A stretch of 64,000 bases of DNA from Candidatus Zhuqueibacterota bacterium. GTDB taxonomy: Bacteria > Zhuqueibacterota > Zhuqueibacteria > Oceanimicrobiales > Oceanimicrobiaceae. Location of the stretch: NCBI GenBank assembly GCA_029262055.1, contig JAJDAD010000043.1, forward strand, positions 1 to 64,000, written 5' to 3'. Position numbers and translations under genes: made by a program. The notes beneath the pieces are model-generated. The model worked only from the letters and a program-made list of their open reading frames with translations. It did no database searches and was not told the origin of the DNA. Below are positions 40,345 to 57,681 of the stretch, piece by piece. The first letter of the stretch is position 1. Every line of letters begins with the position of its first letter.

Positions 40345-41151
40345 ATGAATAATTTCCTCAGAAGGTATTGGAGCAACAAGACTGTACTCATCACTGGCGC
40401 GTCTTCTGGTCTGGGGTGGGCCATGGTCGAAGCGCTGGCTCGTTACCATGTTCATTTCGGGCTTATGAGCCGAAGCACCGCCAAGATGCAAGCCCTGGCG
40501 GAGAAACTCTCAAATAGCGGCAGTCAGTTTTCGATTTACACCTGTGATGTGCGCAACAGGATCGAGGTTTTTGCAGCCGTGCAGCGATTTCGGCAGGAGG
40601 CGGGCCGGATAGATGTGGCGTGGGTGAACAGCGGCGTCGGTGAGGACTCCTCGCACGACTGCTGGAGCTGGGAGAACTTTGAAGCGATGATCGAGACCAA
40701 CCTGAAGGGTGCGATCTACACGACCCAGGCCTGCATTGAAGTAATGCTGACGCAGGGACACGGCGCCATCGCCGGTATCGGCTCCGCCGCGGCCATGAAG
40801 GGGTTGCCCGGGCGGGGCGTCTACGGACTCACGAAGGTTTCCCTGGAATATTTCTTTCTGAGTAAAATGGCCGAGCTGCCGCAAATCCGGTTTACCGTGA
40901 TTCACCCCGGCTTTGTGGATACACCCATCAACCAGGGTAACTCAAAACGCTTTTGGCTGATGCAACCGGACCGGGCCGCCCGGATTATGATTAAAGCGGT
41001 TGCGAGACGGCGCAGGGTTATGGTCTATCCGTTCCGCATGCGTTTGCTCTTTGTTCTCGTACGGCATCTGCCAAACGCACTTTACTCGCGACTGGCCGCG
41101 AAAGCGGTCAACCTGAGCAGGCCGGGGAAGCCCGGCCCGGCCAGGATCTAA
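40345..41151 (+). CDS. Short-chain dehydrogenase/reductase
   Basis: A 268-aa classical SDR. The cofactor motif is TGASSGLG (TGxxxGxG) near residue 17, and the NNAG-equivalent is VNSGVG. The catalytic serine lies in GIGSAAAMKG, and YGLTK provides the YxxxK pair. The C-terminal ~45 residues are basic and partly hydrophobic (RRRRVMVYPFRMRLLFVLVRHLP), as in SDRs that associate with membranes or act on lipids. Substrate unknown. Its stop overlaps the end of the convergent large operon. Confidence 0.88.
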   Translation: MNNFLRRYWSNKTVLITGASSGLGWAMVEALARYHVHFGLMSRSTAKMQALAEKLSNSGSQFSIYTCDVRNRIEVFAAVQRFRQEAGRIDVAWVNSGVGEDSSHDCWSWENFEAMIETNLKGAIYTTQACIEVMLTQGHGAIAGIGSAAAMKGLPGRGVYGLTKVSLEYFFLSKMAELPQIRFTVIHPGFVDTPINQGNSKRFWLMQPDRAARIMIKAVARRRRVMVYPFRMRLLFVLVRHLPNALYSRLAAKAVNLSRPGKPGPARI

Positions 41152-44100
41152 CGCGCAGATACGAACTCGGACAGTTCATGCCCGCTCTTGCCCAGGCGGT
41201 CGGCCAAAACAAGCTTCGAGTGGCTTGCATACTGCTGCAACATAAAAGAATAAAATGAACCTGCCGTGAAGGTCGCCGCCGGCGAAATGGCGGTGCCCAG
41301 GTAGACGCCGTCCCGGGTGCAGGCGTGGATGCCGCTGCGGTCGGCAACCAGCAGATAATCCTGTCGCCAGTGCGCCTGCTCCTGGTCGCCGCTGCCACGG
41401 ACCAGGACAATTCTGGTTGGAAAAGTAAGCTTGATAGACCTGCCTGCGCTGTCAGCATTGTTCTGCCCGAATGAACCGAACGCAGACAGGAAGTCGCCGT
41501 TTGTCGCCAAAACCACGATGCGCTGATTGCCCCAGTCTGCCACATAAATCTGTCCTTCGGAGGATACGGCGATGCCTTCGGGGCTGTTCAAAGGGATGTC
41601 CAGGTTCGTGCGCAACACACCTTGCCGTTCCCCGGTTTCTTCACTGCTGTAAATCCAAATCTCGGACGTTTGCGAATTGACCGCCAGCACCCGGTTGGCC
41701 AGAATGTCCCAGGCCAGATCCCGCAACTCGAGCATGGCGTCAAAATCCCGGACAAGTTCGGAGTCGGTTGCCTGCGGCGGCAACTGCTGCAAGATAACAT
41801 TCCGATCCGTGCGCGCCTGCAAAGCGTAATCCAGATAATTCGCAATTTCGAGGCCGCGTTTGCCGGGAACAAGGTCCAGCTTTCTGTTGAGATGGATTTC
41901 CCGCTGGACGGTACCAGGCACGACCGCCCGGTATTCTGTGCTGAAAGGGTAGTGGTCTTTCTGTTGCACGGTTACTGCGACCGCGGAACCAAGGGCGATA
42001 TCATGCTTGCTCCAGGAGCCATCGGTGAGCGGCAGTTCGTCGCCGTCAACACTGACCCGTGCGGATTCCGTGCTTGCATTCAGTGCGACTACCTGTAATT
42101 TAAGGGTAGAGCTCACGGGATGGCGCACTTCGTCGAGTGGGCCTGACAAGCCCGCAAAATAGTTTCGGGAGGTGACAAGCTTCTCCGACAGGTGGACCCT
42201 GGAGGGATAGACGTCTTTGAACGGACGACCGTAAAGCAGGAGCCAGGCCAGATCTTCCGAAATAGCTTTTTGTCGCAAAAAGCCTTCTTCCGCCAAGTTC
42301 TCATAAGTCAGTTGGTCCGGGCTCCTTCCAGGCTGGAACTGTACGGTAGAATATTGCAGCTTTGCCAGCACAGCCACATTGCCGGAATCGCCGGCAGATT
42401 CAAAGCCCGCCTGGGAGTTTGTCAGCCAAAACTCACGATTGGCGAGCTCCGGATTGTTGAGATTGTCAACAACCTGGGCAAAACATTTTTTGGCTGCCAA
42501 GCCGTTTTCCTGCTGGCGAAATATTTCACCGAGATAGAAGAGTGCGCGCAGAGAACCTCTCCGGTTCACCAGTTCCGAAAATGCGGAAGTGGCCTGCTCA
42601 AGCTCGTCTGCAAAAAACCAGGAGCGGGCTACGATATATTCCGCTTCACTCTTTTTGTCAAAAATCTCCGGCAAGTCCATCATCAGCCGCGCTGCTTGTT
42701 CAAAGCGTTTGCTTTTTTCCCAGGGCGTCGGTTGAATCTCCGCTTCAAGCGACTTGACAATTCCGGAGAAGAACTGTGTTTCCTCAACCCGGTGCTGCTC
42801 AGTCAGAGACAGCAGCCTGTCCAGAAGTTTCAGATAACGCTCCCGCACCGTGCCGATGTTGAGTGCAGCGCGCGGCAAGATGAACTGGACCGTTGCCAGC
42901 GCCTGTTCGACTTTGTCTTGCGGTGTTCCGGTAAGCACGGTATTCCAGATTTGCTGATTGTCCCTGGTTGTGGCGCAGCTCAGCAACAGGTCGAGTTGTT
43001 GTTTGCTGTTTTTTACGTTAGCATTGTGGGGCTCAAACTGAGTCAATTCCGTGGCCAGTTCTTTCAGCTTTCCGGTTCGTCGCGACAGGTAGAAATCCTC
43101 AAAGTCCAACAAGTACTTGTTGTAGCGGGCGTCTTCCACCAAGACACGAATTCGCGGGCTGTTTTTCTGGTCATCAGTAAATGATTCCAAGAATGTCGCA
43201 TAGCTGGCGCGGCTTGCTGCAAAGTCTCCGAGGGTCATTTGCACTTTTGCAAGCCAATACCTGGACTCAATGTCACCCAGGCTCTTTTGATACTGTTGCA
43301 AGACTTGTTCGCCAAGGTACGGGTTTTTCTTCCAGGCGGTTTGCAGCAATCCGCCTTGCAGGAATTGTGCGTCCGCCGCAAACTCCCCATTCTGCAACTG
43401 CTCTACCAGCCCCTTGAACTCCCGCGTCTTCAGGCCTTCAGGATTTATGTAAAAACGGGTGAAGCCGCTGGCCAAATCCAGATAGTCTGAAACCCCGGAT
43501 GCGGCCAGTCCCGCGAGGCCTGCATCCTTCTGCAAGTCTGCAAAGGAAAGTCGTGACAGAAATGATTCCGCCAGTTGCCGGCATTCATGGCGATTTTGAC
43601 CATTGGGGGTTGAGAAGTGCGATCCTTCAATCGCTTGCAGCAGCCGGGCAAACTCCAGATTAAGCAATTTTGCCTTCAGGAGGGCCGCGAGTTTGAGCGC
43701 ACCGAATCGGTCCGCATCGGCTTGAGCGGCAAAAGCGGCTGTTCTGCCGTACAGGTCGGCGATATCCACAAAAGCGGCCAGCAGCTCTGCCGTGCCTTTA
43801 CAGGTCAGGGAGTTGCCATCGGCCATTTTGTAGACCGTCAACCGGCCTGCTCTGATTTGACTTTCTGCCGCCATGTAGCCTGCAAATGCAGCAATCGAGT
43901 CACGGCCTGTACTGCCCAGCGTGCGGAATGCCGCGTGCGCGCGGGCAAACTCAGGCTCAGATTCGAGCACCTCACCCAGGCGGAAAGTGCTCCATGCGCT
44001 TTTGTATTTGGAGAAGGCGTGCAGGTCCGCAAAATCATTTTCCAGCTCTGCGTTTTTTGCGGCAGTATCAAATTCCCTGCGCGCCAACTGGAACAAACGT

Positions 44101-44342
44101 GTCGCACGCGAGGGCTCCGTGCTGCGAATGGCCTTATTGTAGTAGCTCTCGGCCAGGAAGTAGCGGATCAGTCCTTCGGCTTGGGGGTTGGCCACAATAA
44201 GATCTGGGGCTGATTGAATCACCGAGTCGTATTCAGCGGCATTGAACCACAGGATAGAGCGCAGATGATCCTGGGCCGTAAGCGGCGTCAGCAGCCCCAA
44301 CAGCAGAAGGGGAATCTGAACAAAAATCGTTTTCGAGCACAT
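41148..44342 (-). CDS. Exported helical-repeat protein with PEGA-like and NHL beta-propeller C-terminal domains
   Basis: A 1064-aa protein with a signal peptide (ending LTAQD). Most of the first ~700 residues are helical with TPR-like periodicity (LIRYFLAESYYNKAI, ALFYLGEIFRQQENGLAAKKCFAQ). A PEGA-like beta-domain follows (SARVSVDGDELPLTDGSWSKHDIALGSAVAVTVQQ). The last ~215 residues contain NHL-type blades (PEGIAVSSEGQIYVADWGNQRIVVLATNGDFLSAFG). It is the last gene of the eight-gene operon, 7 bp after the TonB-like gene. Helical repeats plus a propeller suit a periplasmic scaffold that joins the motor to other parts. No whole-protein match is recognised. It is incomplete as a six-blade propeller by eye, so blades may be divergent. 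Confidence 0.75.
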   Translation of the reverse strand: MCSKTIFVQIPLLLLGLLTPLTAQDHLRSILWFNAAEYDSVIQSAPDLIVANPQAEGLIRYFLAESYYNKAIRSTEPSRATRLFQLARREFDTAAKNAELENDFADLHAFSKYKSAWSTFRLGEVLESEPEFARAHAAFRTLGSTGRDSIAAFAGYMAAESQIRAGRLTVYKMADGNSLTCKGTAELLAAFVDIADLYGRTAAFAAQADADRFGALKLAALLKAKLLNLEFARLLQAIEGSHFSTPNGQNRHECRQLAESFLSRLSFADLQKDAGLAGLAASGVSDYLDLASGFTRFYINPEGLKTREFKGLVEQLQNGEFAADAQFLQGGLLQTAWKKNPYLGEQVLQQYQKSLGDIESRYWLAKVQMTLGDFAASRASYATFLESFTDDQKNSPRIRVLVEDARYNKYLLDFEDFYLSRRTGKLKELATELTQFEPHNANVKNSKQQLDLLLSCATTRDNQQIWNTVLTGTPQDKVEQALATVQFILPRAALNIGTVRERYLKLLDRLLSLTEQHRVEETQFFSGIVKSLEAEIQPTPWEKSKRFEQAARLMMDLPEIFDKKSEAEYIVARSWFFADELEQATSAFSELVNRRGSLRALFYLGEIFRQQENGLAAKKCFAQVVDNLNNPELANREFWLTNSQAGFESAGDSGNVAVLAKLQYSTVQFQPGRSPDQLTYENLAEEGFLRQKAISEDLAWLLLYGRPFKDVYPSRVHLSEKLVTSRNYFAGLSGPLDEVRHPVSSTLKLQVVALNASTESARVSVDGDELPLTDGSWSKHDIALGSAVAVTVQQKDHYPFSTEYRAVVPGTVQREIHLNRKLDLVPGKRGLEIANYLDYALQARTDRNVILQQLPPQATDSELVRDFDAMLELRDLAWDILANRVLAVNSQTSEIWIYSSEETGERQGVLRTNLDIPLNSPEGIAVSSEGQIYVADWGNQRIVVLATNGDFLSAFGSFGQNNADSAGRSIKLTFPTRIVLVRGSGDQEQAHWRQDYLLVADRSGIHACTRDGVYLGTAISPAATFTAGSFYSFMLQQYASHSKLVLADRLGKSGHELSEFVSAR

Positions 44343-44349
44343 GGGCGAC

Positions 44350-44973
44350 CTATCTGTTTATCATGATGTTTTGTCTGTGTAAGCCGGTCACATAGCAAAG
44401 CGTACCGTTTTTGAGAAATGCGCGACTTGCCAGCATTGCCGCATTTCTGGTCAAATCTGAGACGTCGATCTGGATCTTCATGTTTTCCAGCCGCGTGGGT
44501 ACGTTGAAGTAAAACCGAATCGGGCCGGTCTTGTACGGCAAGAACTTCCAGGAGCTGACAACGCGACGGATGTAGCTTCCGGCTTTTGGGTGCCCGCGGT
44601 CGCGCAGCCTCGTAACAAGAAAATATCCTTGTTCGTCGATCGTCCCTGCAATTGCGACATCAGCTCTTTTGTCGATGCGCTCCAGGTACGTCCAGTCCAG
44701 CGGTTCCGGGCTGAGCCGAAAGTCAATCTCAAACTTGAGTGTCTTGATCGGCGGGCCGACAATGCGCACACTTTGCGTGCCCGGTCGTTTCGGGACCGGA
44801 ATTTTTTCCGGTGCCAGTCGCAACGGAATTTTGTTCTCTGCCTGCGGGATTTGCGACAGCAGGACCTGGCGGTAGACCACCAGCAGGAACAAGATTGCGA
44901 CGAGGGAGAAGATCGCCGTTCTCAGCTTCCTTCTCGGCTTGACGGCAAAGGGATTTCTTTCGATTTCTGTCAT
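44350..44973 (-). CDS. TonB-like energy-transducing protein
   Basis: A 207-aa protein with a short basic cytoplasmic N-terminus, one membrane segment (~19-34), a Pro/Lys linker (PEKIPVPKRPG) and a C-terminal domain (~100-160). That domain follows the TonB pattern: ADVAIAGTIDEQGYFLVTRL, then a helix ending SSWKFLPYKTGPIRFYFNVP. About 45 more residues follow it, which is unusual. It lies 13 bp after the second exbD-like gene, as in ExbB-ExbD-TonB operons. It probably carries proton-motive energy from the inner-membrane channel towards the outer membrane. Its target is more likely the barrel encoded in this operon than a nutrient receptor (inference). Confidence 0.75.
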   Translation of the reverse strand: MTEIERNPFAVKPRRKLRTAIFSLVAILFLLVVYRQVLLSQIPQAENKIPLRLAPEKIPVPKRPGTQSVRIVGPPIKTLKFEIDFRLSPEPLDWTYLERIDKRADVAIAGTIDEQGYFLVTRLRDRGHPKAGSYIRRVVSSWKFLPYKTGPIRFYFNVPTRLENMKIQIDVSDLTRNAAMLASRAFLKNGTLCYVTGLHRQNIMINR

Positions 44974-44986
44974 TTTCTATCGGTCT

Positions 44987-45553
44987 CTAGTTGAACTCAA
45001 TTTGAATGACGTTGCGTTCGATGAAAATATCGCTGCTGGCGCGGAGGTCGGCAATAGAACCTCCGACGCAGCCGTATTGAAAATGCGGAGAGTCCACCAG
45101 TTTTTCCACGACATTGGTGGCAAAGTAATAGGGTAGCTCATCCGGGCAGCGCACGAGTACAAAAAAGTCGAGGTCCGGCTTAGCATTTACCTCCTGTTTC
45201 AAGCGCTCGATGCGCTGGCCGAGCCGGCGCGAGTCCAGGCTCATTTTGTCCACCAGCAAGTCGACTTTTGCTTCGGTCGAGAGCCGGCGCGTACCATTCT
45301 CACTATAATGGAGAAGAGTATCAATGGCTGTGTGATCAAGCCAGACGTAGGAGTCAGCATCGATGATCTGGATCATGACCTGGGTCTCGCCCGGTTCGTT
45401 CTTCGGAGTCGGCAAATAGAGCTGGGCTTCGCCATCGGTCATCCTGATCAGAATACTTGAAATGATAAAAAAGATGAGCAAGATGAAAATCAGATCGATC
45501 AGAGACACCATTTGCAACTTTCGACCGTGTGGGGCTTCTCTCTTAAACGCCAT
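44987..45553 (-). CDS. ExbD/TolR-family protein (second copy)
   Basis: A 188-aa protein with one N-terminal membrane helix carrying the essential aspartate (VSLIDLIFILLIFF, Asp20) and a periplasmic domain of ~150 residues. The ATG at 45553 is chosen because it starts the conserved MAFKRE segment; it overlaps the end of the first exbD-like gene by 11 bp. The periplasmic part is longer than in E. coli ExbD and differs from the first copy apart from the membrane helix. Having two non-identical ExbD proteins per channel is also seen in the AglQ/AglS pair of Myxococcus. Confidence 0.88.
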   Translation of the reverse strand: MAFKREAPHGRKLQMVSLIDLIFILLIFFIISSILIRMTDGEAQLYLPTPKNEPGETQVMIQIIDADSYVWLDHTAIDTLLHYSENGTRRLSTEAKVDLLVDKMSLDSRRLGQRIERLKQEVNAKPDLDFFVLVRCPDELPYYFATNVVEKLVDSPHFQYGCVGGSIADLRASSDIFIERNVIQIEFN

Positions 45554-46160
45554 GGTTGTCGCTCCGTTTGAGCGGCCGCGTGCGCAGAACAAGTTGTGGA
45601 ATGTCATCCTGGTAGGCGCTACACTGCTCCATGATAAAATTGAGGATTTTAAACTCGGTGCTCTTCTCGGCGCGTACTTCGACCAGGGCCCGGTTAAAAA
45701 AACCTGTTTCTTTGCCACGCTCGATATACTCTGCAATTGACCTGGAGATCAACATACACGGGGCGGTAGCAGCAAATTCGGATTTCGGCAGGGACAAATA
45801 GCCGGGAGGAAATCTCGCAAAGGTAGAGTCCAGGCGTGCTTGCTCCAAAGCCTGTCTGCGTGAAATCTCTGGCGCCTCAGCCGGTCCGGGCCACAAAATG
45901 TAAACAGTCCGGCCAGCCTGGCCTTCGGATGAGTCGGCAGTGACCTCGATCATCAAGTGCTGTAATTCATCTTTTTTGATAATTGCGGTTTCCGTATCCG
46001 ATGTCGGTAGCTCGACGTCTGCTGAAACCCGCGATTTCGAATAGCTGCCGGTGAGTGAGAACGCAAACGAAACCAGGAAGAAGATCAGCAACAGGAAAAC
46101 CACATCGATCAGGCTGGTCAACTCCAGCCCGCGCGGATTTTCGGTTTTTCGAAATGCCAT
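45543..46160 (-). CDS. ExbD/TolR-family protein (first copy)
   Basis: A 205-aa protein. The membrane helix carries the proton-path aspartate in LTSLIDVVFLLLIFF (Asp19), followed by a periplasmic domain of ~165 residues with two cysteines (APCMLIS, EQCSAY). The ATG at 46160 begins the MAFRKTENPRG segment, closely similar to the start of the second copy; an in-frame start at 46211 would overlap the exbB-like gene and is rejected. The gene starts 11 bp after the exbB-like stop. The family forms the mobile part of ion-driven motors together with ExbB-type channels. Confidence 0.88.
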   Translation of the reverse strand: MAFRKTENPRGLELTSLIDVVFLLLIFFLVSFAFSLTGSYSKSRVSADVELPTSDTETAIIKKDELQHLMIEVTADSSEGQAGRTVYILWPGPAEAPEISRRQALEQARLDSTFARFPPGYLSLPKSEFAATAPCMLISRSIAEYIERGKETGFFNRALVEVRAEKSTEFKILNFIMEQCSAYQDDIPQLVLRTRPLKRSDNHGV

Positions 46161-46171
46161 ATCGTACCCGC

Positions 46172-47794
46172 CTATAGTTGCTCGGTTATCGAAACGTAAA
46201 TTTCTTCCCACTTCGAATAAATCCAGTCGAGCTTATGCTTGAAGTAGTAGTAGATGATCACGAACAGGATACCATTGGCGAGACCGAAGATTGTGGTCCA
46301 GAGCGCTTCAAAGATACCGTTGCTAAGCAGTTGCAGTGTTTTCGAAAAGTCTTCAGTGACGGAAGAGGTCGCCAACTGCTGAAATGCGAACGTGATTCCC
46401 GTAACCGTACCAAAAAGTCCAACCAGCGGCGCGAGCGCCCCGTAGTTCCAGAACCACTCGATGCGCGATTTGCGCTTCAGGATCTCGATTTCGCTGGAAG
46501 CACGATCTTCAAACGCGCGTTTAACTTCCTCGGTCGGCTTCGACCAACGGTGACCATTCATCCGGTGGATTTCCAGGCCGGCATGAATAATCCTGCTGGT
46601 TGGGAATGGCCGCAACCCGCGCTTCAAATCCATGACTCCTTTACGCAGACACCACTTGCGGAATCGTGCAAACGGCTTTTCATCGGCCACAACCGGACTG
46701 TAGATTTCATCGATCAGACGTTCCATATTGTGCTTGCAGGCCTGGGGGTGGCCGTTGCCGTTCGGCATGACCAGTTCGTGGAAGTTGTCCTCGATTTTGA
46801 CCACCAGTTCCGTCAGAACGTCGTCAGTCGTTTTCGGCTTGCCGTTCATCTTATATTCCGGGAAAGCGATGATGTCTTCGATTGTACCGATTGCTCGGTC
46901 GCCATCCGACGACCAGTATTCCATACAAGCAACGTCTACTGACGCCATCTTTTCGGTGGAACTCAATTCCGCAGGAATCGTCTTGACGGCCTTGTCAGCT
47001 ATGACTTTGCTTTTTACGGCAATCATCTCCCAGGCATCGAGGATAAACTTGAACTTTTCGGTGAGACGCTTTTCGTAAGAAACGTCGCAGCTCATGGACA
47101 GGGAATAGGCCAGCCCCTCCGAAGCTCGCTTAAAGGGAAAGATATTCCCCAGGTACAAGGTCCGGGACGAGTAGAAGAAGAAGACGAAAAGACTCAGCGC
47201 TCCGGTTACCGAGAGAAACACAAAGGCGACTTTCCCCAGCATGGTTGAGTGGTCGTAAATCTGCGCTTTGCCGACCACCGCCAGTTGCCACCTGCCCGGA
47301 TGCAGGTAGTAGGGCCAGTTATGCCCCAACATCGGCGCTCCGCTTTCCCCGCCTTTCCCGATGACAAGGGTCGCCCGGTCTGACTCCACGAGAATACCGC
47401 CGCCGGCATCTAGCGCCTGGACTTTCAGAAAAAGTTCTGTCCCCACCGGGATGGCATTTATTCCCGCAGAGTTCCCCTTCGTCGCGATGACCTCAGCGTA
47501 GGGCGAACCAGTCTTGCTTTCATAGGCCAGGACCTTGTACGATAAGTTGTCGCCGACAAGGTCTTGATGCTCACCATTTTCGTCCTTCGTGGTTGCGGTC
47601 CAATGCACATTGAGGTCAACAGACTTCGGCAGATAAAGCCAGTTTCTCTCAACTTTTTGGTAAACAACATCTGCGATTGCTAGTTCGTACACTGGTTGCG
47701 ATTCTTGTGCATGAGCGGTCGCAGAATGTAGGCCTAGCGCCGGCAAAGCCAGCGCAACGATGTGCAAAAGCACGCGGGGTTGAAAGACTCTCAT
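46172..47794 (-). CDS. MotA/TolQ/ExbB proton-channel protein with exported FN3-like N-terminal domain
   Basis: A 540-aa protein, more than twice the size of ExbB. Residues 1-30 look like a cleavable signal peptide. Residues ~35-147 resemble a fibronectin type III domain (VDLNVHWTAT ... LSYKVLAYES ... ELFLKVQALDAGGGI). Membrane helix 1 is ~187-207, followed by a cytoplasmic region of ~240 residues. Helices 2 and 3 lie at ~451-472 and ~496-517, with the family motifs LAPLVGLFGTVTGITFAF and GIFEALWTTIFGLANGIL; both pore threonine positions are kept. AGAGGTGG lies 7 nt before the ATG. With the two ExbD proteins it should form a proton-driven motor in the inner membrane. Confidence 0.85.
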   Translation of the reverse strand: MRVFQPRVLLHIVALALPALGLHSATAHAQESQPVYELAIADVVYQKVERNWLYLPKSVDLNVHWTATTKDENGEHQDLVGDNLSYKVLAYESKTGSPYAEVIATKGNSAGINAIPVGTELFLKVQALDAGGGILVESDRATLVIGKGGESGAPMLGHNWPYYLHPGRWQLAVVGKAQIYDHSTMLGKVAFVFLSVTGALSLFVFFFYSSRTLYLGNIFPFKRASEGLAYSLSMSCDVSYEKRLTEKFKFILDAWEMIAVKSKVIADKAVKTIPAELSSTEKMASVDVACMEYWSSDGDRAIGTIEDIIAFPEYKMNGKPKTTDDVLTELVVKIEDNFHELVMPNGNGHPQACKHNMERLIDEIYSPVVADEKPFARFRKWCLRKGVMDLKRGLRPFPTSRIIHAGLEIHRMNGHRWSKPTEEVKRAFEDRASSEIEILKRKSRIEWFWNYGALAPLVGLFGTVTGITFAFQQLATSSVTEDFSKTLQLLSNGIFEALWTTIFGLANGILFVIIYYYFKHKLDWIYSKWEEIYVSITEQL

Positions 47795-47833: not shown

Positions 47834-49963
47834 CTAATTTGTATTCAGTGAAAAATAATCGTGTATGACTGTTCCCGTTGAAAAAGCTCTAATATATGCA
47901 TCAGTTATACGTGTCATTGTCTTTGCCAGTCGTTCAAAGTCGCCTGCCTGATAGGATTCGACCAGGCCGGTCAGCAACGTTTGACCGTTGGTCAGAAAAG
48001 CCGCGAAATCAGAGTCCGGGAAGAACCGCGGGATCTTGGCAAACTCGTTCAGGAACTCGCGAGATTCTTCCGGCGATGACAAGTAGTACATAGATGCGGC
48101 CCGCAAGAACAGCACTTCATCGCCAAACGAACAGTCCGTGGTCAGCGGCAGATAAAGATCAGCAGGAAAAGCCGAAGTGTTCAGATCAACCTCCTGCAAT
48201 GTCTGTAATACTTCCTGGTATTCGCCTTCCAGAAAGAAGATATGTGCAAGCAAAAACTTGCCAAGTTGATGCTCGTTCAGATTGTCCGAAACGAGCCGGA
48301 TAGCTTCCGGTTTACGGCCATCCTTGTACAGCGCATACGCCTTCAGATAGTCCAGCGTGCGTCTCGCAGTTGCAGAAGTCCCGGAAATCGTCGTAACAGC
48401 CAGATTTTTGCCCCACGACTTTCCGTCGCTTTCCAGGGCTGCGAGGCTTTCGTGCGGTTCATTGGCCAGCAAGCCCGCTTGCATGGCGAATAGAAACGAA
48501 CGAAAGTACGCCTCTCGATCGAGTTCCTTTTTGCCGGCGTCCAGCCGCATAAACCGCCGGGCGCGATTGGTATAAGCCTGCACAGTTGACCTGAATCTGT
48601 CAGCTCTGCTTTCGGGATCGGGGTCGTCGACTAATTGTGTCTCCTGCATCTCGCGCAGCAGGCTCAGGAAACGGACATCAGCGGAACGCAGGGCCGCTTC
48701 GTAGCGGTAGGCGCGTTTGCCGGTGTTCTTCGAGGTTTCCGAGTAGCGTAAAAAGGTCAGGGCCTGCTGTGCAGAGCGGGCCGTATAAAGGTCGTGACAG
48801 TCAGGTGCCTGCAATTCTGCCATGGCCGCCTGGTACCAATAGCGCGAAGTGAACGGATTGCGGTCAACTGAAAAGGAGTAGCGCGCGCCGGTGGCGTCGA
48901 AGCTGCTCCGGTCGTTACCGTAGGTCCAGTCAGCGGAAGGAAGCCAGTCGCGGCCCAGCAGGATCTCCGGGCTAAAATTGAGACCGAAAGTTATGGACTC
49001 ATGATTGGAGTTTGAGCCGAGTCGTAATTTTACCGGCCACTCGCTGTTGATTCTTGAGAAGTCATACTCCAGTCCGAACATGACTTCCTGCTCTCGCCCG
49101 GCGGGTGCGACCACGCCGTAATCGAATGACAGCATCAGTCCGTTCAGATAGCCCAGGGCCGGACTTACCGAAACACCCAGGACTGCGTTGGCAGGTATCT
49201 TGTCCTGCAGCACGTTGGCCGTCCTGGAAAAAGTCGGCTGATTAAGATCGCGCCAGGTAAATCCCAGGTTGAAAAAACCGGATTCATGCGCATATTTGAA
49301 TCCCAGGTCAAAGCTGGTGGCCGACAACCCGACGCCAAATAGGTCCTGCTGGATGAACTTCGCAGTGAGGCCGACGTCCAGGTCACCCGCGATGATTTTG
49401 CCAAAGCCGGACTTGGAGCTTAGTCCCGACCTGCGCAGTAAGGAGTTCAGAGGATATGATGCGGAAACGTAGACTGCGCTCTGGTCGGTGGAAGTGCCGG
49501 CACTGGCACCGCCGGACTGCGGTACCGCGGCGTTGTCGAAGAGTTGGAATTCACCCAGAGAGTGCCAGAGAACGCCGACCCCGAGTTTCAGATCCTGCAA
49601 CCCGCGCACGAAGCCACTGGTGCCGGGATTGCCGACAAAAAACAGTCGCACCGGCACCGCGCCGGCGAGGTAATTCAGAGAAGCGCCTTCACGCAGCGGC
49701 ATGTGCATAAACATGAAGGTGCCGCCGGTTCGTCTCAAGGCTGACATCCCCGCCGGGTTCCAATACAGGGCGCTGGCATCGTCGGAAATAGAAGTGAACG
49801 CCCGGCCAAGCCCCATGGCCTTGGCGCCTGTGCCCCAACGCAAGAATTCCCCTGCCTGCCCGGCATTGCCCTGGGCGTGACCTATGTCTCCGGTCAAATG
49901 CAGTACCAAAGCCGCGGTCAAAATCATGGCGGCTACTTGTGTGCTAATAGCTCTATACATCAT
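47834..49963 (-). CDS. PorV/PorQ-like outer-membrane barrel fused to a C-terminal helical repeat region
   Basis: A 709-aa protein with a signal peptide (residues 1-31). Residues ~36-335 form a PorV/PorQ-type barrel, opening with GAKAMGLGRAFTSISDDASALYWNPAGM and continuing as alternating strands. After a short link, residues ~370-709 are largely helical with TPR-like features (TLDYLKAYALYKDGRKPEAIRLV, FLLAHIFFLEGEYQEVLQTL). PorV proteins are normally ~350-400 aa and lack this part, so this looks like a fusion placing a periplasmic helical domain under the barrel. It overlaps the end of the 989-aa FN3 protein gene by four bases and is 39 bp from the exbB-like gene. A bridge between surface protein and motor is a reasonable inference. 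Confidence 0.78.
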   Translation of the reverse strand: MMYRAISTQVAAMILTAALVLHLTGDIGHAQGNAGQAGEFLRWGTGAKAMGLGRAFTSISDDASALYWNPAGMSALRRTGGTFMFMHMPLREGASLNYLAGAVPVRLFFVGNPGTSGFVRGLQDLKLGVGVLWHSLGEFQLFDNAAVPQSGGASAGTSTDQSAVYVSASYPLNSLLRRSGLSSKSGFGKIIAGDLDVGLTAKFIQQDLFGVGLSATSFDLGFKYAHESGFFNLGFTWRDLNQPTFSRTANVLQDKIPANAVLGVSVSPALGYLNGLMLSFDYGVVAPAGREQEVMFGLEYDFSRINSEWPVKLRLGSNSNHESITFGLNFSPEILLGRDWLPSADWTYGNDRSSFDATGARYSFSVDRNPFTSRYWYQAAMAELQAPDCHDLYTARSAQQALTFLRYSETSKNTGKRAYRYEAALRSADVRFLSLLREMQETQLVDDPDPESRADRFRSTVQAYTNRARRFMRLDAGKKELDREAYFRSFLFAMQAGLLANEPHESLAALESDGKSWGKNLAVTTISGTSATARRTLDYLKAYALYKDGRKPEAIRLVSDNLNEHQLGKFLLAHIFFLEGEYQEVLQTLQEVDLNTSAFPADLYLPLTTDCSFGDEVLFLRAASMYYLSSPEESREFLNEFAKIPRFFPDSDFAAFLTNGQTLLTGLVESYQAGDFERLAKTMTRITDAYIRAFSTGTVIHDYFSLNTN

Positions 49964-52929
49964 AAAACCTTCTTGACTACGCCTATTTTGAAGCGAACAT
50001 TCGTCCTGGTCCCTACGACGATATAGCCACCATTCGCTACGTATTCACCATTGCCATTTTTTCCGTCCCAGGCAAAATCGTAGCTAGTGATTTTGGCATT
50101 GAGACGTCGAACGAGATTACCAAAAAAATCGTAGATGCTGACCTCGGTTTCATCCTCATTATCCACGCGGATGGTTGCCTTTTCCTGCATCGGATTGAAT
50201 GGATTGGGAAAGGCAAACATAGGAAGCGGTTTCTGCTGCAGGAAAAAGCCAAGCTGCAACGATGAGCTTTCGTGCCCCGCGCCGTCGATGACTTTCACGG
50301 ACAATTCGATGGGGACGGCATTGTCGGCCACCGTGACGATATCATAGGAAATGATGTCGTTGAACCGGGCAGTTGAGTCGCTGACCGGCATGATCGCTCC
50401 GGCACTGCCGTTTTCCGTGATGACATAGTTCCAAATCTCCCCACCGGCTCCATCGCGGGCACTGAGCGCCAGGTCGAGCTTACGCGAAAAGGCCCAGACC
50501 TGGCCATTTACTCTCTGGCCGCCGGGGAACTCAAAACTTTCAACAACCGGAGGCGTGTCGTCTTGCCGGGACTGAACGGTGTTGGAGCGCACGGTCCTGG
50601 CATGCAGATCGGTGCCGGTAATCCAGTAGCAATAACTCTGGCCATCCTGCAGGTCTGCAAACGGCTGGCAGCCCTGCGCCGCCGGCGTGGCAATGACCAC
50701 TGAATCCAAAGGCGCGCCGTCGCAGCTACTAGCGCGGAAAACAGTCATGTTGGCGAGGGCCCCGGAAATCGACCAACAAATCGAATTTGACAGGCCTGGT
50801 GTAAATTCCGGCAGTTCTGCAAGCTCGATGTGGGGTATGCCGGTGTAGCTGCATGTTTCTTCCGGCCCCTGGATTCGTGCATTGCCTACCGAGTCAACCG
50901 GAACAATCCGGTATGAAAACTCCCGGCTCGGTGCGTCCGCAGGGAAGCTGTCCAGGTAGGACAGCACACCTGCATTGACCGAATCGATGACCACGCCATC
51001 GCGTACAACGCGGTAGACAGCCAGGCCGCTGCAATCCGCTTCATCTGCGGCCGGAGTCCAGATCAGCCCGATGGCATTATCGCCCTGTATCTGACTGCAA
51101 GTGAGCGCGCCCACCTGCTCGGGAGCTTTGTCGTCCAACGCAATGCGGAGCGGATCTGCCACAGTCGTGTTGCCGGCAGCATCGGTAATTTCGAGGGAGA
51201 GGTTAATCGGCCCGCAGATGGAACTAAGCAGCGCGACAGGAATGGTAGCGCTCCACTCACGGCCGTTAGCGCTGAGGTCTTGCTCAAACAGCGGAGAATC
51301 GTTTTCGGTTAGCCGCACGGCCTTTAGTCGTCCCTGCAGAGCGTCGCGAGCCACAACCGAGACTTCGATATCCCGCGTGTTTACCCAATCCTGGTTCGCA
51401 AGATGGATGATGCCCGCAATCGAGAATTCAGGGAGTGTGGGTGCCGAGGCGTCCTGGATGGTGGCAACCGTGTCCGACCGAATCGTACGCTGCTGCACAT
51501 CCACGGCTTCAACCCAAAAAGCGTATGAACTACCATCGATGAGGTCAGTGAAGGTGTGACAGGTGTCGGCCACAGCGACTCGCACGGAAGATTCGAAATC
51601 TCCATCCTGCGCCCGAAATACGGAATAGGTCGTAACATCGCGCGTTCTGGTCCAGCACACTTCGTTTGTAGTGCCGGCTGTAAACTCGGGCTCTGACAGC
51701 ATCGTGAGCACCGGCACGGCGCGGAAACTGCATGTCTGTTCACCGCCAACGGTTTGCACGTTGCCCAGTGAGTCGCTGGCCTGAACCTGGTAAGCCAATT
51801 CCAAATCAGATGTGTTGGCGGTGAACCGGTCAATGAAAGTGGTCTGCCCCGCGCCCACAGTCGCAATGGCTTCACCGTTTCGGAAAATATCATATTTTGC
51901 CAGACCGATACCCGGAGCCGGATCTTCTGATGCTGTCCAGGTTAGCTGGACCGTATTCAGGATCTGCTGGCAGTCCAGGCTGACTGAAGAGGGTGGACTG
52001 GTGTCAATGGTGATCTGAATCTGCGCTGCCGCGCCATCGAGCGGTTGGCCACCGTTGCCGGCAAGCTCAAAGTTCGGGAAGAAACTCGCCGGGGTGTGCG
52101 TACCGTCTTTTGCCTCTACCCGGAATGAGTAGCACCCGTCCGGCAACTCCTGCGCAAAGGTAACGCTCGCTGCTGCATCAAAGGTGAACCCGATATCGCT
52201 GGAGTCACTGGCAAAGGTGGTATCAGCCACCGATGTTGCCCAAAGCGGTTCTGAGCAATCCTTGCGGTACAAAAAAGCCTGCCACACACCTGCATCGTCC
52301 TGCAAGTCGGCACGCAGCGTAAATCCGGGTTGGCGCAACCAACCCGGAAATGCACTCGCTGCTAACTCAGGAATTTCAACATTAGTCACCCCGGGGACTT
52401 GATTGTCCTGAATTGTCCAAACCGTGTCGCTATAGGCGCTACAATGTTTCTCCAGTTGCGTACTGTCTGTAACGGCAGCGCAATCACCCAAACAAACCGG
52501 AAGCACCAGCGCGCTGCTAAATTCATATTTTACACCGTTCTCCAGTTGGCCGATAAATTCGACTTGCGCGGACGTATCGTCCAGATCGACCGGTCTGGGG
52601 AATTCGAAGACGGCGTTCGTGCTCAAATCGCGTACGATGGTGCTGACAAATGGCTCGCGGACACTGTCCACCGGGACCGGCAACAAACCAACCGGCGGCA
52701 GAAAAAATCCCAGTTGGTTTGTGTTTCCCTGAGTGTATCTGGGCTCACCCTGCAGGAGTGGCGCAGGCACATCTTCAATGCAGTCCACTTGCTGCAAGGT
52801 CCTTACAAAAGTCAGAAACTCAGCGAAGTTTTCGTCTGTCCGAAGCGATTTCGGTTGTGCCTGCAGAGCGTCGCCCGACAGAAAAATCGTAGCAAGAACG
52901 ACCGCTTTTTTAACAGAGTATCGAAACAC
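49960..52929 (-). CDS. Large exported FN3/Ig-repeat protein with sorting-type C-terminus
   Basis: A 989-aa protein starting at GTG (AGAGG five bases upstream), with a signal peptide (~1-24). Three repeating blocks are visible. Each has a module opening with a PxFTxGxxNxxCW-type motif (413-426, 706-719; degenerate at 62-75) and closing at a QD-xxx-P motif (174-180, 492-497, 789-794), followed by an Ig-like domain. Ordinary FN3 domains (~305-400, ~601-694) precede modules two and three. Residues ~903-989 resemble a sorting/FlgD-like domain (FAFPNPFNPMQEKATI, VSIYDFFGNLVRRL, WDGKNGNGE) but lack the usual last residues, ending VKKVL. Many paired cysteines suggest disulfides after export. Probably a surface fibre or adhesin. 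Function unknown. Confidence 0.82.
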   Translation of the reverse strand: MFRYSVKKAVVLATIFLSGDALQAQPKSLRTDENFAEFLTFVRTLQQVDCIEDVPAPLLQGEPRYTQGNTNQLGFFLPPVGLLPVPVDSVREPFVSTIVRDLSTNAVFEFPRPVDLDDTSAQVEFIGQLENGVKYEFSSALVLPVCLGDCAAVTDSTQLEKHCSAYSDTVWTIQDNQVPGVTNVEIPELAASAFPGWLRQPGFTLRADLQDDAGVWQAFLYRKDCSEPLWATSVADTTFASDSSDIGFTFDAAASVTFAQELPDGCYSFRVEAKDGTHTPASFFPNFELAGNGGQPLDGAAAQIQITIDTSPPSSVSLDCQQILNTVQLTWTASEDPAPGIGLAKYDIFRNGEAIATVGAGQTTFIDRFTANTSDLELAYQVQASDSLGNVQTVGGEQTCSFRAVPVLTMLSEPEFTAGTTNEVCWTRTRDVTTYSVFRAQDGDFESSVRVAVADTCHTFTDLIDGSSYAFWVEAVDVQQRTIRSDTVATIQDASAPTLPEFSIAGIIHLANQDWVNTRDIEVSVVARDALQGRLKAVRLTENDSPLFEQDLSANGREWSATIPVALLSSICGPINLSLEITDAAGNTTVADPLRIALDDKAPEQVGALTCSQIQGDNAIGLIWTPAADEADCSGLAVYRVVRDGVVIDSVNAGVLSYLDSFPADAPSREFSYRIVPVDSVGNARIQGPEETCSYTGIPHIELAELPEFTPGLSNSICWSISGALANMTVFRASSCDGAPLDSVVIATPAAQGCQPFADLQDGQSYCYWITGTDLHARTVRSNTVQSRQDDTPPVVESFEFPGGQRVNGQVWAFSRKLDLALSARDGAGGEIWNYVITENGSAGAIMPVSDSTARFNDIISYDIVTVADNAVPIELSVKVIDGAGHESSSLQLGFFLQQKPLPMFAFPNPFNPMQEKATIRVDNEDETEVSIYDFFGNLVRRLNAKITSYDFAWDGKNGNGEYVANGGYIVVGTRTNVRFKIGVVKKVL
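50239..52017 (-). repeat. Tandem ~295-residue protein repeat unit (two copies)
   Basis: Within the 989-aa protein, residues 305-600 (bases 52017-51130) and 601-897 (bases 51129-50239) share the same order: FN3 domain, CW-to-QD module, Ig-like domain. They match at many positions, e.g. GLAKYDIFRNGEAI with GLAVYRVVRDGVVI and YQVQASDSLGN with YRIVPVDSVGN. The match is at the protein level and looks old. Confidence 0.65.
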
Positions 52930-52953: not shown

Positions 52954-55900
52954 TTATCTGACCAGGAGCATTTTCCGAGATTGTAGAAACCCTTGGGTAC
53001 GGATGCGATAAATATAGACGCCGCTACCAACCTGCACGCCGAAATCATCCCGTCCATCCCACACGATTGAATAGTTTGCCGGGGCTTTGTTTTCGTTGAC
53101 CAGCGTCCTGACTTGTTGTCCCTTCAAATTGAATACGTCCAGCCGCACCGGGACGCTTCCCGTGTTGACTGATGGAATTGCGTACTCGATTGTGGTCGTG
53201 GGGTTGAAGGGATTCGGATAATTCTGCGCCAGGCTGAACACTTCGGGAACAAGCTGCAAGTTTTCCGAAAGCAGCAGGCGCTCAGGAGCCTGACCATCCA
53301 GGCCGCAAAAGAATGTGTCTGACCAGGCGCTTTCCAGATGTCCAAAGCGCACCTTGATCCGCCAGAAGATCTGTTCCCACGGTACATCGAAATTGATACA
53401 GAGCGAGTCGGTTGGCCCCACAAGAATGTTCGTTGAAGCATTGCCGAAGAGTTCGGAAAATCGAGCACCTTCTACTATATAAGAGACCTGCACATCAGCG
53501 GCCTGGGCTGAGGGCGTCCAGCAAAAGGTCGAATCGTCGCTGCACCAACCCGAATCCGGCGCCGTCAGGGCCAGCGGTATCGCGACAGGTTGGACCGCGG
53601 TTTGTCTGTTGCCTACACTGTCCACCGCGAACACGCGCCAGCTTTGCGCCAATAAGGTTGCATCATTCTTAAGATTACGCTCAATGAATCTATGCGTCGC
53701 TGTCCGGCTGGTATCGCGTGTGACCACGGAATCATTCCGAACGACTTCGTAGAACCAGGTTCCGGCGCAGTTGTCTGCGACGTCCTGCCAGCTCAGTAAC
53801 ACATTTACGACACCCGAACCTCCGAATATGGGCGCCTGAATTGAATCGATGGCGACTATCGCCGGAGACGGCGGCACATCATCGAAAGAGCCGCTGGCTG
53901 CACCCAGTTGCGGGTAAGCTGTGGACCACGGTGACTTGTGCCCCCATCGGTCTTGGGCGCGTACCCGCACGTGCAGATCGCTGGCATCGGTGTTGAGAAA
54001 CCCCAGGTCTCTGGCGCGCAAAAATGTCCCGGATTGTGTCCCGCCGGCGCCAAAGCGTCTTTGCAGCGCAGTCCCCGAAAAATCGGGTTCGACACTTACT
54101 TCGACAATGACACTGTCGGCGCCAAAGTTGCCGGCAGCCGTTTTGAGAGACTCGTCCAGCCACTCCCAGACGACCGCAACGCTGTCCCGAAAACAGGTGG
54201 GTTTCAGGTGCGCCACCTTCGGGGTAAACAGCCAGGGTGGCGAAAAACTCGCGTGTTGGGTTGGTGTCATCAAAGAACGTTGCCCGAGGGAATCGACAGC
54301 GTAAATGTCGAAATCGTAGACCTGGGTGATATCCAGTCCGGTGATGAGCAGAGAATCGATGTCCTGCAACTCGACGATCGCGGGGTTGTGCTGCCCGCTG
54401 CCTTCATACTGGATCAGGAACTTGCTTTGCTCATTGCCAAGCGCATCCCAATGCAGAAAAACTCGGCCCGTGCTCGAATCCGGATGAACGGGCAGGGCCT
54501 GGGCATCGAATACAACCGTCCTGGGCAAATTCTTGAACGGCACGATTATCCTATCTGAGATCGAACCGGGAAATGAGTCCGCGCATTGCTGTTGCGGGTC
54601 AGTGCGCGCAGTTTCCCGCACCTGGAAAATATAGTTGTGCATTTCCTGCGGCGAAGGAAAAGTGAAACACGTCTCATTCGTCACGGTGAATGTTGCAAAT
54701 GGCTCGGTAGTGACCGAATCCTCATAAACCAACACAGTGGTCTCGAACAGGTTTGCACCCGCTGCCAGCGGCACTGGCCGGTTCCAGCAGACCGTGATGT
54801 CCGTGTCGCTGACTTGCGTCATTGATTCGTCAAAGACGAGCGGCGGACTCGAATACTGTACCACCATGCTTTCGACTTCCGAGAGCAGGCCAAAGCAGTC
54901 CTGGGCCTGGACTGCGTAGTTGGTGCATTGATAGGCAACCAGCGTCCCTGTGCTGAACTCGTGGGTCCAGTTTGTGATGTCTCCAGCCAGGGCAACGATG
55001 GGCGTATCCGGCCGGGCTTCCGTTTCACCCCAGGCAAAGATCCGGAATTGCTCGATTTCGTCCATTTCAGGGTGAGACCAGGTCAGGGAGATATTTCCGG
55101 TTCCGCTCTGGTCCTGATCCGCGGTCACGTTCGTCGCCACAGCCAGATTCACCTTCCGCCGGATGGTAAGAGTGTTGGAAAAGAGCGTGGTGTCGCCATT
55201 GCTGTAAAAAGCCCGAACGCGAAAACGGTAGATGCCGTCGCCTCCTGCCATCGGGGCGCTGAGACTGGTGGCCGCGCCGTTGGCCGCAACCTTGATGTGT
55301 TTCGAAGCATCGGGTAAGATGGTTTCGACTTCGTAGCCGGCCAGGTCCGCAGGATCGTAGTTTTGCCAGAAGAGTCGTATGCTGTCAAGCGCCACCCGCG
55401 TCCGGCCATCTGAGCAGGACAGCAGGGCGTTTTCATCAAATTGAATCGTCGGGCCGACCAGAGCCCTGAGCGCTACTTCATGTGAAGAAGCCAGCGCGTC
55501 CCGGAGATTGCCGACGTTGTCCGTGGAGCCAATCCGGTACGTGATGATGTCATTGCGAGCAAAATTCTGCAATGAGTCACAATAGCTTGTCAATCCCGCA
55601 GCCACCGAGTCGATGATAGTAAACTCTGTGGCGTCCTCACGTCTACCGTAAATGAAGAAAGCGCGGGTTCCGCTGACAGAATCTTCACCGCCTTGCCAGG
55701 TGAGCTGGTTACAGCCCGTTGCGCCGTCGCCTGCTTTTAGCGTCTCAGCTTTGAGACTGCTTACGTCGAGCGGCGCGAAGGCGTCCTGAGTCGAGGCTAC
55801 CGTATCTGACCAGGCACTGAAATTGTTGAATCGATCCTTTGCCCGGACGCGGTAGAAATAGGTTTTGCCACTCACGAAGTTCGGATCTTCTCCGGTCGGC

Positions 55901-57681
55901 AGGAGACTAAATTCAACTCCCCACCGTTTTGCGAGGTCATTCACATGCATCCAGCCACTGTCGAAAAAGTCCGGGCCGGCTGCGGTTGAGCTATCCCCTG
56001 TAAAGAGGCTGGCCGACTCACGCGCCGCCTGAAAACGAAGGGAGTCCGTGTCTCTGAATCCGACACATTCAGCATCCTGCGATGGGTCCAGGATCGTCAC
56101 CAGATTTGACACTCCGCGGCTGAATTGGCGTCCGGCAGGGCTGTCAAAGTCAAACCACCGCTCCGGGTGCGGTCGGCATTTGGAGCTAAGATCGGCAACG
56201 ATTGGAACTGATTCGGCGCCGATTGACACATTCCCAGCACCATCGACCACTGAAATTCGATATCGGAATGTAGAGCCGTCGTCCGAGTCGGCGAGCATGT
56301 CGTCGTAGCTAATGCGCTCACCGGATACGAAAGGCAGGATCGCATCGACGGGTTGTATAAAGACAACGTACATAAGCGGTTCTTTGTGCACCAGTGACGT
56401 ACCCGAAGCAAAATTTCCGCCGAGGACGACTTTCCCCGGTTGAAAAATCTGCCGGCTTTTGAAGAGAGGGACCCGCTCACTATTCGCCGTGACACTCTTC
56501 CCCAGAGGCTCGAACTGCCGGCTCAGCCATTCCGGCACGGCCAGGTTAAGCTGGTCGTAATCGTAAGCTATGTAGAGCCAGGAAGCCACTTGTAGATCAA
56601 ATGACAGGAACTCGTCGTCAGTATTCCATCTGTCGTTAATCGCGGTCTTGATCATTGCCGAACCTGCCAGCTTGTTCATAGGCAGCCAGTCGATCTCGAA
56701 GTCGCTCCCGAACTTCGCTGAAATGGAAGAATCAGCATTCGGGCTATCAACATAGAGGCTTTCCCCGACATTAGTGACTACGGGATAGTAGCTGGCGGGG
56801 ACAATATGGCGCACGGGGAAAAACGCCAGGGTATCTCTTGATACAAACGCTTCATTGCCGGCAAGAGGTTTGCGTGCGATTACATAGCTGTCCAGATAGC
56901 TGGTTTCGTCGGGCAGGATGGGCCAGGTCAGGGTGAGGCGCCTTTCTGCCAGATCCAACCGGAAGCGCTCTATGGCTACTTGTGGCGGAGCAGCATTATC
57001 CTGTGTTGAGTAAACTACATTTGAATCAAAGTAGAGGGCACCTGCAGGGTCGGTAGCCCGTACGAAATAGCCAAAGCGAACGCCCTCGGGTAAGTTTTCC
57101 AAAACACCGCAGGTGTCGGGTCCAACCCCGGTGAGAGCCGCCGGTGCAGGAGAAGGCGAACCAGCGCTGCCCCCAGGTTCTTGCAGCAAAAGCTCATACT
57201 GGAATCTATCGTCAAAGGGCCCCCAACATACCTGGTTGGATGAGCCTTTGCTGAATGCAGGTTCGTCCGGGATAGTTGATGTAACATTGATACGGACGCG
57301 CCGGCTCTCCTCGGCAACCTGTTTGCCCTGAACGAAAAATCGAGCAATGACATTAAAGGAATGCGAGCCGTAGTCGGCATCCGTCGGCGTAAAATAAATG
57401 GTGTCTATCATCGCACACGCTGTTTCTGTACAATCCAGCCGACGCGAATCCCATTCAATGAAAGCCGGTTTCACGCCGCCAACCCTGAAGTCTAATGTGC
57501 CGGGTCCCTCGGCTTCAGCAGATAAGATTATCCTGCTGGTTTCATTGGGCCGCACGTGGACATTCAAGTTCCCCTGAACTTGAAAACTAATTAAGGCATT
57601 ACCTTCGAATGGGAAGGCGATAGCGGGAAATAGAAACAGGAGTGCGATTAGACCGAAGTTGAGGACTTGAAGCAATAGCAT
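52954..57681 (-). CDS. Giant exported FN3-repeat protein with Por/T9SS-like sorting domain
   Basis: A 1575-aa protein with a signal peptide (~1-22) and GGAG 8 nt before the ATG. About ten beta-sandwich domains fill the length; typical FN3 strands are FRYRISVVDGAGN, YFYRVRAKDRFNN and SWRVFAVDSVGN. CW-to-QD modules like those of the 989-aa protein occur at ~140-233 and, degenerate, ~517-637. CW...C pairs recur near residues 965-1005 and 1387-1428. Residues ~325-425 (YIAYDYDQLN ... PEWL ... GKVVLGGN) resemble an accessory domain found in sugar-active exported proteins. The last ~93 residues are a classic sorting domain: NYPNPFNPTTTIEY, LDVFNLKGQQVRTLV, GVYIYRIRT, KMLLVR. First gene of the operon; probably surface-exposed. 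Confidence 0.85.
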   Translation of the reverse strand: MLLLQVLNFGLIALLFLFPAIAFPFEGNALISFQVQGNLNVHVRPNETSRIILSAEAEGPGTLDFRVGGVKPAFIEWDSRRLDCTETACAMIDTIYFTPTDADYGSHSFNVIARFFVQGKQVAEESRRVRINVTSTIPDEPAFSKGSSNQVCWGPFDDRFQYELLLQEPGGSAGSPSPAPAALTGVGPDTCGVLENLPEGVRFGYFVRATDPAGALYFDSNVVYSTQDNAAPPQVAIERFRLDLAERRLTLTWPILPDETSYLDSYVIARKPLAGNEAFVSRDTLAFFPVRHIVPASYYPVVTNVGESLYVDSPNADSSISAKFGSDFEIDWLPMNKLAGSAMIKTAINDRWNTDDEFLSFDLQVASWLYIAYDYDQLNLAVPEWLSRQFEPLGKSVTANSERVPLFKSRQIFQPGKVVLGGNFASGTSLVHKEPLMYVVFIQPVDAILPFVSGERISYDDMLADSDDGSTFRYRISVVDGAGNVSIGAESVPIVADLSSKCRPHPERWFDFDSPAGRQFSRGVSNLVTILDPSQDAECVGFRDTDSLRFQAARESASLFTGDSSTAAGPDFFDSGWMHVNDLAKRWGVEFSLLPTGEDPNFVSGKTYFYRVRAKDRFNNFSAWSDTVASTQDAFAPLDVSSLKAETLKAGDGATGCNQLTWQGGEDSVSGTRAFFIYGRREDATEFTIIDSVAAGLTSYCDSLQNFARNDIITYRIGSTDNVGNLRDALASSHEVALRALVGPTIQFDENALLSCSDGRTRVALDSIRLFWQNYDPADLAGYEVETILPDASKHIKVAANGAATSLSAPMAGGDGIYRFRVRAFYSNGDTTLFSNTLTIRRKVNLAVATNVTADQDQSGTGNISLTWSHPEMDEIEQFRIFAWGETEARPDTPIVALAGDITNWTHEFSTGTLVAYQCTNYAVQAQDCFGLLSEVESMVVQYSSPPLVFDESMTQVSDTDITVCWNRPVPLAAGANLFETTVLVYEDSVTTEPFATFTVTNETCFTFPSPQEMHNYIFQVRETARTDPQQQCADSFPGSISDRIIVPFKNLPRTVVFDAQALPVHPDSSTGRVFLHWDALGNEQSKFLIQYEGSGQHNPAIVELQDIDSLLITGLDITQVYDFDIYAVDSLGQRSLMTPTQHASFSPPWLFTPKVAHLKPTCFRDSVAVVWEWLDESLKTAAGNFGADSVIVEVSVEPDFSGTALQRRFGAGGTQSGTFLRARDLGFLNTDASDLHVRVRAQDRWGHKSPWSTAYPQLGAASGSFDDVPPSPAIVAIDSIQAPIFGGSGVVNVLLSWQDVADNCAGTWFYEVVRNDSVVTRDTSRTATHRFIERNLKNDATLLAQSWRVFAVDSVGNRQTAVQPVAIPLALTAPDSGWCSDDSTFCWTPSAQAADVQVSYIVEGARFSELFGNASTNILVGPTDSLCINFDVPWEQIFWRIKVRFGHLESAWSDTFFCGLDGQAPERLLLSENLQLVPEVFSLAQNYPNPFNPTTTIEYAIPSVNTGSVPVRLDVFNLKGQQVRTLVNENKAPANYSIVWDGRDDFGVQVGSGVYIYRIRTQGFLQSRKMLLVR

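Follow-up and report, generated by a model that had tools for sequence, protein, structure and literature searches.

An ExbB-type proton channel with a predicted exported FN3-type domain in a conserved operon of the phylum KSB1

We describe in a genome of the bacterial phylum KSB1 an ExbB-type proton channel protein, here called FN3-ExbB, in which a predicted exported FN3-type domain precedes the first transmembrane helix (TM1). The protein is conserved across part of the phylum together with an operon that encodes two ExbD proteins, a TonB-like protein, a PorV-like protein, a TPR/NHL protein and two FN3 proteins with putative secretion signals. In this operon the FN3-type domain probably links a proton motor with a partner that belongs to a surface or envelope machine not yet studied. 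Throughout, ‘the window’ designates the whole stretch of DNA analysed (64,000 nucleotides), and the coordinates of all features are collected in Table 1.

Table 1. Features of FN3-ExbB and of its operon in the window.
Feature	Coordinates	Strand	Evidence
FN3-ExbB, 540 aa, A-subunit of a proton channel; predicted exported FN3 domain at the N-terminus	46172..47794	(-)	Translation, Pfam, profile alignment
Predicted signal peptide, residues 1-29 (AHA-QE)	47708..47794	(-)	Sequence; conserved hydrophobic start and AxA/AQ boundary in relatives
FN3-type beta-sandwich (predicted), residues 35-144	47363..47692	(-)	AlphaFold, Foldseek, profile versus PDB, Pfam fn3 in 10/18 relatives
Conserved linker into TM1, residues 145-184 (Y..P.GR..L..G...YD.ST)	47243..47362	(-)	28-sequence alignment
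TM1, residues 185-211	47162..47242	(-)	Hydropathy; AlphaFold helix 185-211
Enlarged helical cytoplasmic region (predicted), residues ~212-440	46475..47161	(-)	AlphaFold, low-confidence model
TM2-TM3 channel core, residues ~446-539, GLFGTVTGI and EALWTTIFGL	46178..46457	(-)	Pfam, alignment to TolQ chain 8odt_A, invariant columns
Giant FN3 protein, 1575 aa, signal-peptide-like start, T9SS-like C-terminal domain	52954..57681	(-)	Pfam fn3 1e-10, weak FlgD_ig / Por_Secre_tail
Second FN3 protein, 989 aa, FlgD_ig / T9SS-like C-terminus	49960..52929	(-)	FlgD_ig 4.8e-11, fn3 1.9e-5
PorV/PorQ-family-like outer-membrane protein, 709 aa, weak TPR-like C-terminal region	47834..49963	(-)	NF033709 PorV_fam 7e-17, below cut-off
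ExbD-1, likely ATG start at 46160	45543..46160	(-)	Weak TolR match; orthologues in conserved position
ExbD-2, likely ATG start at 45553	44987..45553	(-)	ExbD Pfam 1e-8
TonB-like protein, 207 aa, one N-terminal TM, TonB_C-like C-terminal domain	44350..44973	(-)	hhalign
TPR + NHL protein, 1064 aa, signal-peptide-like start	41148..44342	(-)	NHL 2.9e-8, weak TPR; co-occurs with FN3-ExbB

Channel core and N-terminal domain of FN3-ExbB

A preliminary description of this DNA had read the open reading frame as an ExbB-type channel, and this assignment is borne out. More specifically, the single Pfam domain of the protein is MotA_ExbB (PF01618; residues 399-530, E = 1.6e-21), with a score of 76.8 bits that passes the curated cut-off of 22.9. 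The equivalog models TIGR02797 (ExbB) and TIGR02796 (TolQ) match the same core with 43.1 and 57.2 bits, far under their cut-offs of 206.2 and 221, so that these scores place FN3-ExbB within the channel family without making it a classical ExbB or a TolQ. Across TM2 and TM3, a profile built from seven relatives matches structures of TolQ and ExbB; the GLFGTV motif, the threonine of GxxGT in TM2 and the EALxxT of TM3 align with TolQ and are invariant among the relatives. The domain order runs from a signal-peptide-like start through the beta-sandwich, linker, TM1 and a large helical cytoplasmic region to the MotA_ExbB channel. Between TM1 and the TM2-TM3 pair, AlphaFold places ~230 mostly helical residues at low confidence, the full-length model (pLDDT 59) being too weak for domain contacts to be read from it.

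Residues 1-29 resemble a Sec signal peptide (MRVFQPRVLLHIVALALPALGLHSATAHA, followed by QE), beginning with basic residues, continuing with a hydrophobic stretch and ending in AHA-QE. The hydrophobic start is common to the relatives and the AxA/AQ boundary is found at the same place in most of them, in agreement with the signal peptide first proposed for residues 1-30. Because the N-terminus of ExbB-type proteins lies outside, the domain that follows should be located in the periplasm.

That domain had been matched to FN3 by pattern only, over residues ~35-147. AlphaFold modelling of residues 31-188 together with six relatives predicts strands at residues ~35-144, behind which a short linker is helical; mean pLDDT is 73.6 (block means of 72-89 within the sandwich) and pTM 0.64. 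The predicted fold is a beta-sandwich, as the FN3 reading demands. When this model was compared with the PDB using Foldseek, nearly all of the top 50 matches were FN3-type domains, including those of growth hormone receptor, fibronectin (FN3-3 and FN3-6), irisin, EphA8 (FN3) and tissue factor, with E-values of 1e-4 to 4e-3 and TM-scores of up to 0.70 by target and 0.3-0.5 by query, the latter partly because the query takes in the linker. A profile of the N-terminal domain from 18 relatives matches 58 PDB sequences at E <= 0.1; nearly all are FN3 proteins, with titin (2.7e-11) and fibronectin (8.4e-6) as the best. Taken together, the structure prediction and the profile matches put the FN3 signal well above chance and identify the domain as FN3-type.

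The segments originally singled out as strands fall into place within this fold: HWTAT is the strand around the invariant W65, SYKVLAY the C strand and FLKVQALDAGG an F strand typical of FN3. The Pfam fn3 model, proposed as a check, matches the domain in 10 of the 18 relatives (best E = 3.6e-6) and gives no match to the window copy as a single sequence, so a plain Pfam scan misses it. Conserved core positions of the domain across FN3-ExbBs are W65, D60, P56 and G146. For the same relatives, identity to the window copy is 27-41% over the N-terminal domain versus 35-61% over the whole protein, showing that the domain evolves faster.

FN3 domains are common binding modules, and here the linker that leads to TM1 shows good conservation; both points would suit an anchor that binds peptidoglycan, a polysaccharide or a fixed envelope protein and keeps the ExbB ring from rotating or drifting. 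Pfam searches, however, matched no carbohydrate- or peptidoglycan-binding family, and we regard such an anchor as improbable.

Operon structure and distribution in the phylum

The operon comprises, in order, the giant FN3 protein, the second FN3 protein, the PorV-like protein, FN3-ExbB, ExbD-1, ExbD-2, the 207-aa protein and the TPR/NHL protein, separated by intergenic gaps of -11 to 39 bp. Both ExbDs retain the transmembrane aspartate (LIDVVFLLLIFF in ExbD-1 and LIDLIFILLIFF in ExbD-2). The two giant FN3 proteins that the preliminary description had noticed in the operon are real (fn3 matches in Table 1) and, given their T9SS-type C-terminal sorting domains, are expected to reach the cell exterior. 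In profile comparison, the FN3 domain of ExbB resembles the repeats of the operon's secreted FN3 protein (E = 4.4e-7 for the window copy). Compared by hhalign with ten TonB_C domains of the same genome, the 207-aa protein reached a probability of 88%, versus 8.9% with the five strongest alone and 0.2-0.4% for controls. Pfam (including TonB_C, PF03544) and PDB searches with this protein gave no match, and we call it TonB-like with the caveat that its TonB_C identity comes from pairwise profile comparison alone.

Using the N-terminal-domain profile, FN3-ExbB was found in 26 of the 82 genomes of phylum KSB1; other weak matches, which were either not ExbB frames or unchecked, were not counted. Also set aside was a match in L109, a sequence without the channel and of von Willebrand-type appearance by eye. 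Outside the phylum, no FN3-ExbB was found among about 300 further relatives at E <= 1e-5. In a tree of the channel region, the FN3-ExbBs and the second ExbBs of a variant operon (see below) stand apart from the ordinary ExbBs of the same genomes, 23 in all, with support of 99/95 for the ordinary ExbB group and 91/91 for the split holding the FN3 group. This topology, which includes some long branches, is consistent with one origin of the FN3-ExbBs.

Wherever contigs allow, the FN3-ExbB clade sits in one conserved operon, whose gene order is unchanged within the family (L040-L043) and across distant ones (L044-L047, L091-L107); where the sequence extends far enough, it nearly always begins with the secreted FN3 proteins. 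Of the 82 genomes, 24 have both FN3-ExbB and the TPR/NHL protein and 54 have neither (Fisher p = 3e-16 ignoring kinship; p = 1e-7 within the class alone). The exceptions are two genomes with only FN3-ExbB and two with only the TPR/NHL protein, where the contig or the gene looks truncated.

This distribution bears on whether the FN3-type domain is a structural passenger that helps only the membrane insertion or assembly of ExbB. Its low overall sequence conservation (mean column identity 35%) and the presence of another domain at the same place in one variant lineage would fit such a passenger. All 27 FN3-ExbBs of the tree, however, keep the domain at a fixed position and with a conserved core, whereas a passenger should be lost often, and we consider this explanation quite improbable.

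An additional ORF of ~360 aa with an aromatic C-terminal end, possibly an outer-membrane barrel, lies between the PorV-like gene and FN3-ExbB in L098-L107; Pfam gave no match for the two copies tested.

Variant operon, T9SS connection and possible role of the domain

A related operon with two tandem long ExbBs occurs in three genomes of family f3 and in G002:C33 (L048, L049, L050, L051). After its signal peptide, the first ExbB probably carries a fused TonB_C-like domain, in the same N-terminal place as FN3. Among the four first ExbBs, the TonB_C Pfam model gave E-values of 4.7e-4, 2.3e-3 and 0.22, all below cut-off, and no match to the L051 copy; comparison of the domain with the 207-aa protein by hhalign gave 93-95%. 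The second ExbB had been read by eye as carrying FN3, a reading dropped when profile comparison gave 0.2-14%. FN3 and the TonB_C-like domain probably represent a natural domain swap at the same ExbB position, and the periplasmic N-terminus of these ExbBs seems to be an attachment place for different partner-type domains. A probable TonB_C-like domain at the place of FN3 supports a docking role.

Accounting for these features, we propose, with about an even chance of being right, that the FN3 domains provide a dedicated 5:2 proton motor with a docking face in the periplasm, this motor energising an envelope machine. FN3-ExbB would be the A-subunit of an ExbB5:ExbD2-type proton motor dedicated to this machine. 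Its signal peptide would export the N-terminus, and we infer a pentamer whose periplasmic side would bear five FN3 domains arranged as a ring, with the conserved ~40-residue linker tethering each of them to TM1. The ring would dock the machine's own periplasmic transmission protein beside the ExbD axles; the TonB-like 207-aa protein, whose gene lies immediately downstream of the ExbD pair, is the likeliest candidate. Proton flow would in turn be relayed as mechanical output to an outer-membrane assembly comprising the two secreted FN3 proteins together with the PorV-like and TPR/NHL proteins.

The FN3 fold, the intact channel core, the ExbD transmembrane aspartates, the tight conserved operon and the co-occurrence with the TPR/NHL protein all argue for a docking motor. 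A precedent for docking to a TonB-like protein comes from Serratia, where the exported extension of ExbB, whose signal peptide is cleaved, binds HasB, a TonB paralogue, at its C-terminal domain (PMC9008036). The faster divergence of the N-terminal domain relative to the whole FN3-ExbB counts against docking, as do the negative Pfam and PDB searches with the 207-aa protein.

Alternatively, the FN3 domain may bind the giant FN3 proteins (or the PorV-like carrier) as they cross the periplasm, the motor directly powering export or surface movement. We find this rather unlikely, even though the position of the secreted FN3 proteins at the head of the same operon, the recognition of their FN3 repeats by the ExbB FN3 profile, their T9SS-type C-termini, the presence of SprA in the genome and a second operon with the same logic (G000:C73) all speak for it. 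Against it, FN3-FN3 recognition is no general property of the fold; furthermore, SprA is found in 60 of 60 relatives, including the close genomes G001 and G007 that are without FN3-ExbB, so the operon is unneeded for T9SS itself. Given the resemblance between the ExbB domain and the FN3 repeats of the secreted protein, a direct FN3-FN3 contact during export is possible. The preliminary description had suggested that the channel's FN3 domain may contact the giant FN3 proteins or a periplasmic link; the evidence slightly favours such a link, the TonB-like protein, the giant proteins being expected outside the cell.

The presence of SprA in all 60 relatives and the patchy presence of FN3-ExbB, found in a minority of the class, also led us to reject the operon as the general or core motor of T9SS; families f4 and f9, in addition, have a different short ExbB adjoining SprA. 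The GldM profile (TIGR03517) matched nothing in the 60 relatives, and the controls were silent too. At the SprA loci of G010, G022, G015 and G031 (L121-L124; f4 and f9), the region immediately downstream of sprA holds a short ExbB, an ExbD and an ORF that may be TonB-like, the short ExbB/ExbD being a candidate T9SS energiser other than GldL/GldM.

The second motor operon of the same genome (L053 4793-15863, corresponding to G000:C73:61792-72862) encodes a 1207-aa protein with a CHU_C T9SS tail, a PorP/SprF-like protein (E = 0.002, below cut-off), an ExbB with a weak C-terminal Big_1 domain, two small ExbD-looking ORFs and a TPR protein.

Relation to known systems and significance

FN3-ExbB shares with ExbB/TolQ of the TonB and Tol-Pal systems the MotA_ExbB core, three transmembrane helices, the GxxGT and EALxxT motifs and ExbD partners. 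It differs in length (540 versus ~230-245 aa), in the predicted exported FN3 domain and ~230-residue helical cytoplasmic region, and in being accompanied by two ExbDs and an operon with secreted FN3 proteins. The layout resembles the AglRQS-Glt gliding machinery of Myxococcus, which has one TolQ-like and two TolR-like proteins along with TonB-like, TPR and outer-membrane parts; the FN3 domain and T9SS-type cargo set the KSB1 operon apart from it. The Bacteroidota T9SS (GldL/GldM with SprA/PorV/SprB) combines a proton motor, a PorV-like carrier and giant secreted proteins with C-terminal sorting domains. The FN3-ExbB operon has the same combination, with ExbB/ExbD instead of GldL/GldM.

Closer to the domain itself, the long ExbB of the Serratia marcescens HasB system likewise has a signal peptide and a periplasmic extension before TM1 and pairs with a TonB-type partner, but that extension is ~50 residues long, Ala/Pro-rich and invisible in cryo-EM density, whereas FN3-ExbB is predicted to carry a folded FN3 sandwich (PMC9008036). 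Generic ion transporters with DUF3450 or DUF2341 appendages are A-subunits with lineage-specific N-terminal domains of unexplained role, in a paper that makes no mention of fibronectin/FN3 domains or KSB1 (mBio 2025, PMC12505986). Appendages on ExbB-type channels are thus already known, and to these we add an FN3 appendage in a conserved operon; in the open-access literature we found no paper on an ExbB with FN3, and our literature search found none on KSB1 with T9SS.

The function of extra domains on ExbB-type channels is a question posed in that paper (PMC12505986), and the present case makes it testable by offering a recognisable folded domain, a phylum-wide operon that supplies candidate partners and a probable natural swap. 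A further-reaching and speculative possibility, which we think unlikely, is that KSB1 has a proton-driven surface machine in which the FN3-bearing ExbB ring would move or assemble the giant T9SS-type FN3 proteins by periplasmic force transmission, a counterpart of gliding or adhesin motors with ExbB/ExbD replacing GldL/GldM. If the proposed role of the FN3 domain is true, FN3-ExbB would be part of a proton motor with its output on the periplasmic side, in a phylum of almost no known physiology.
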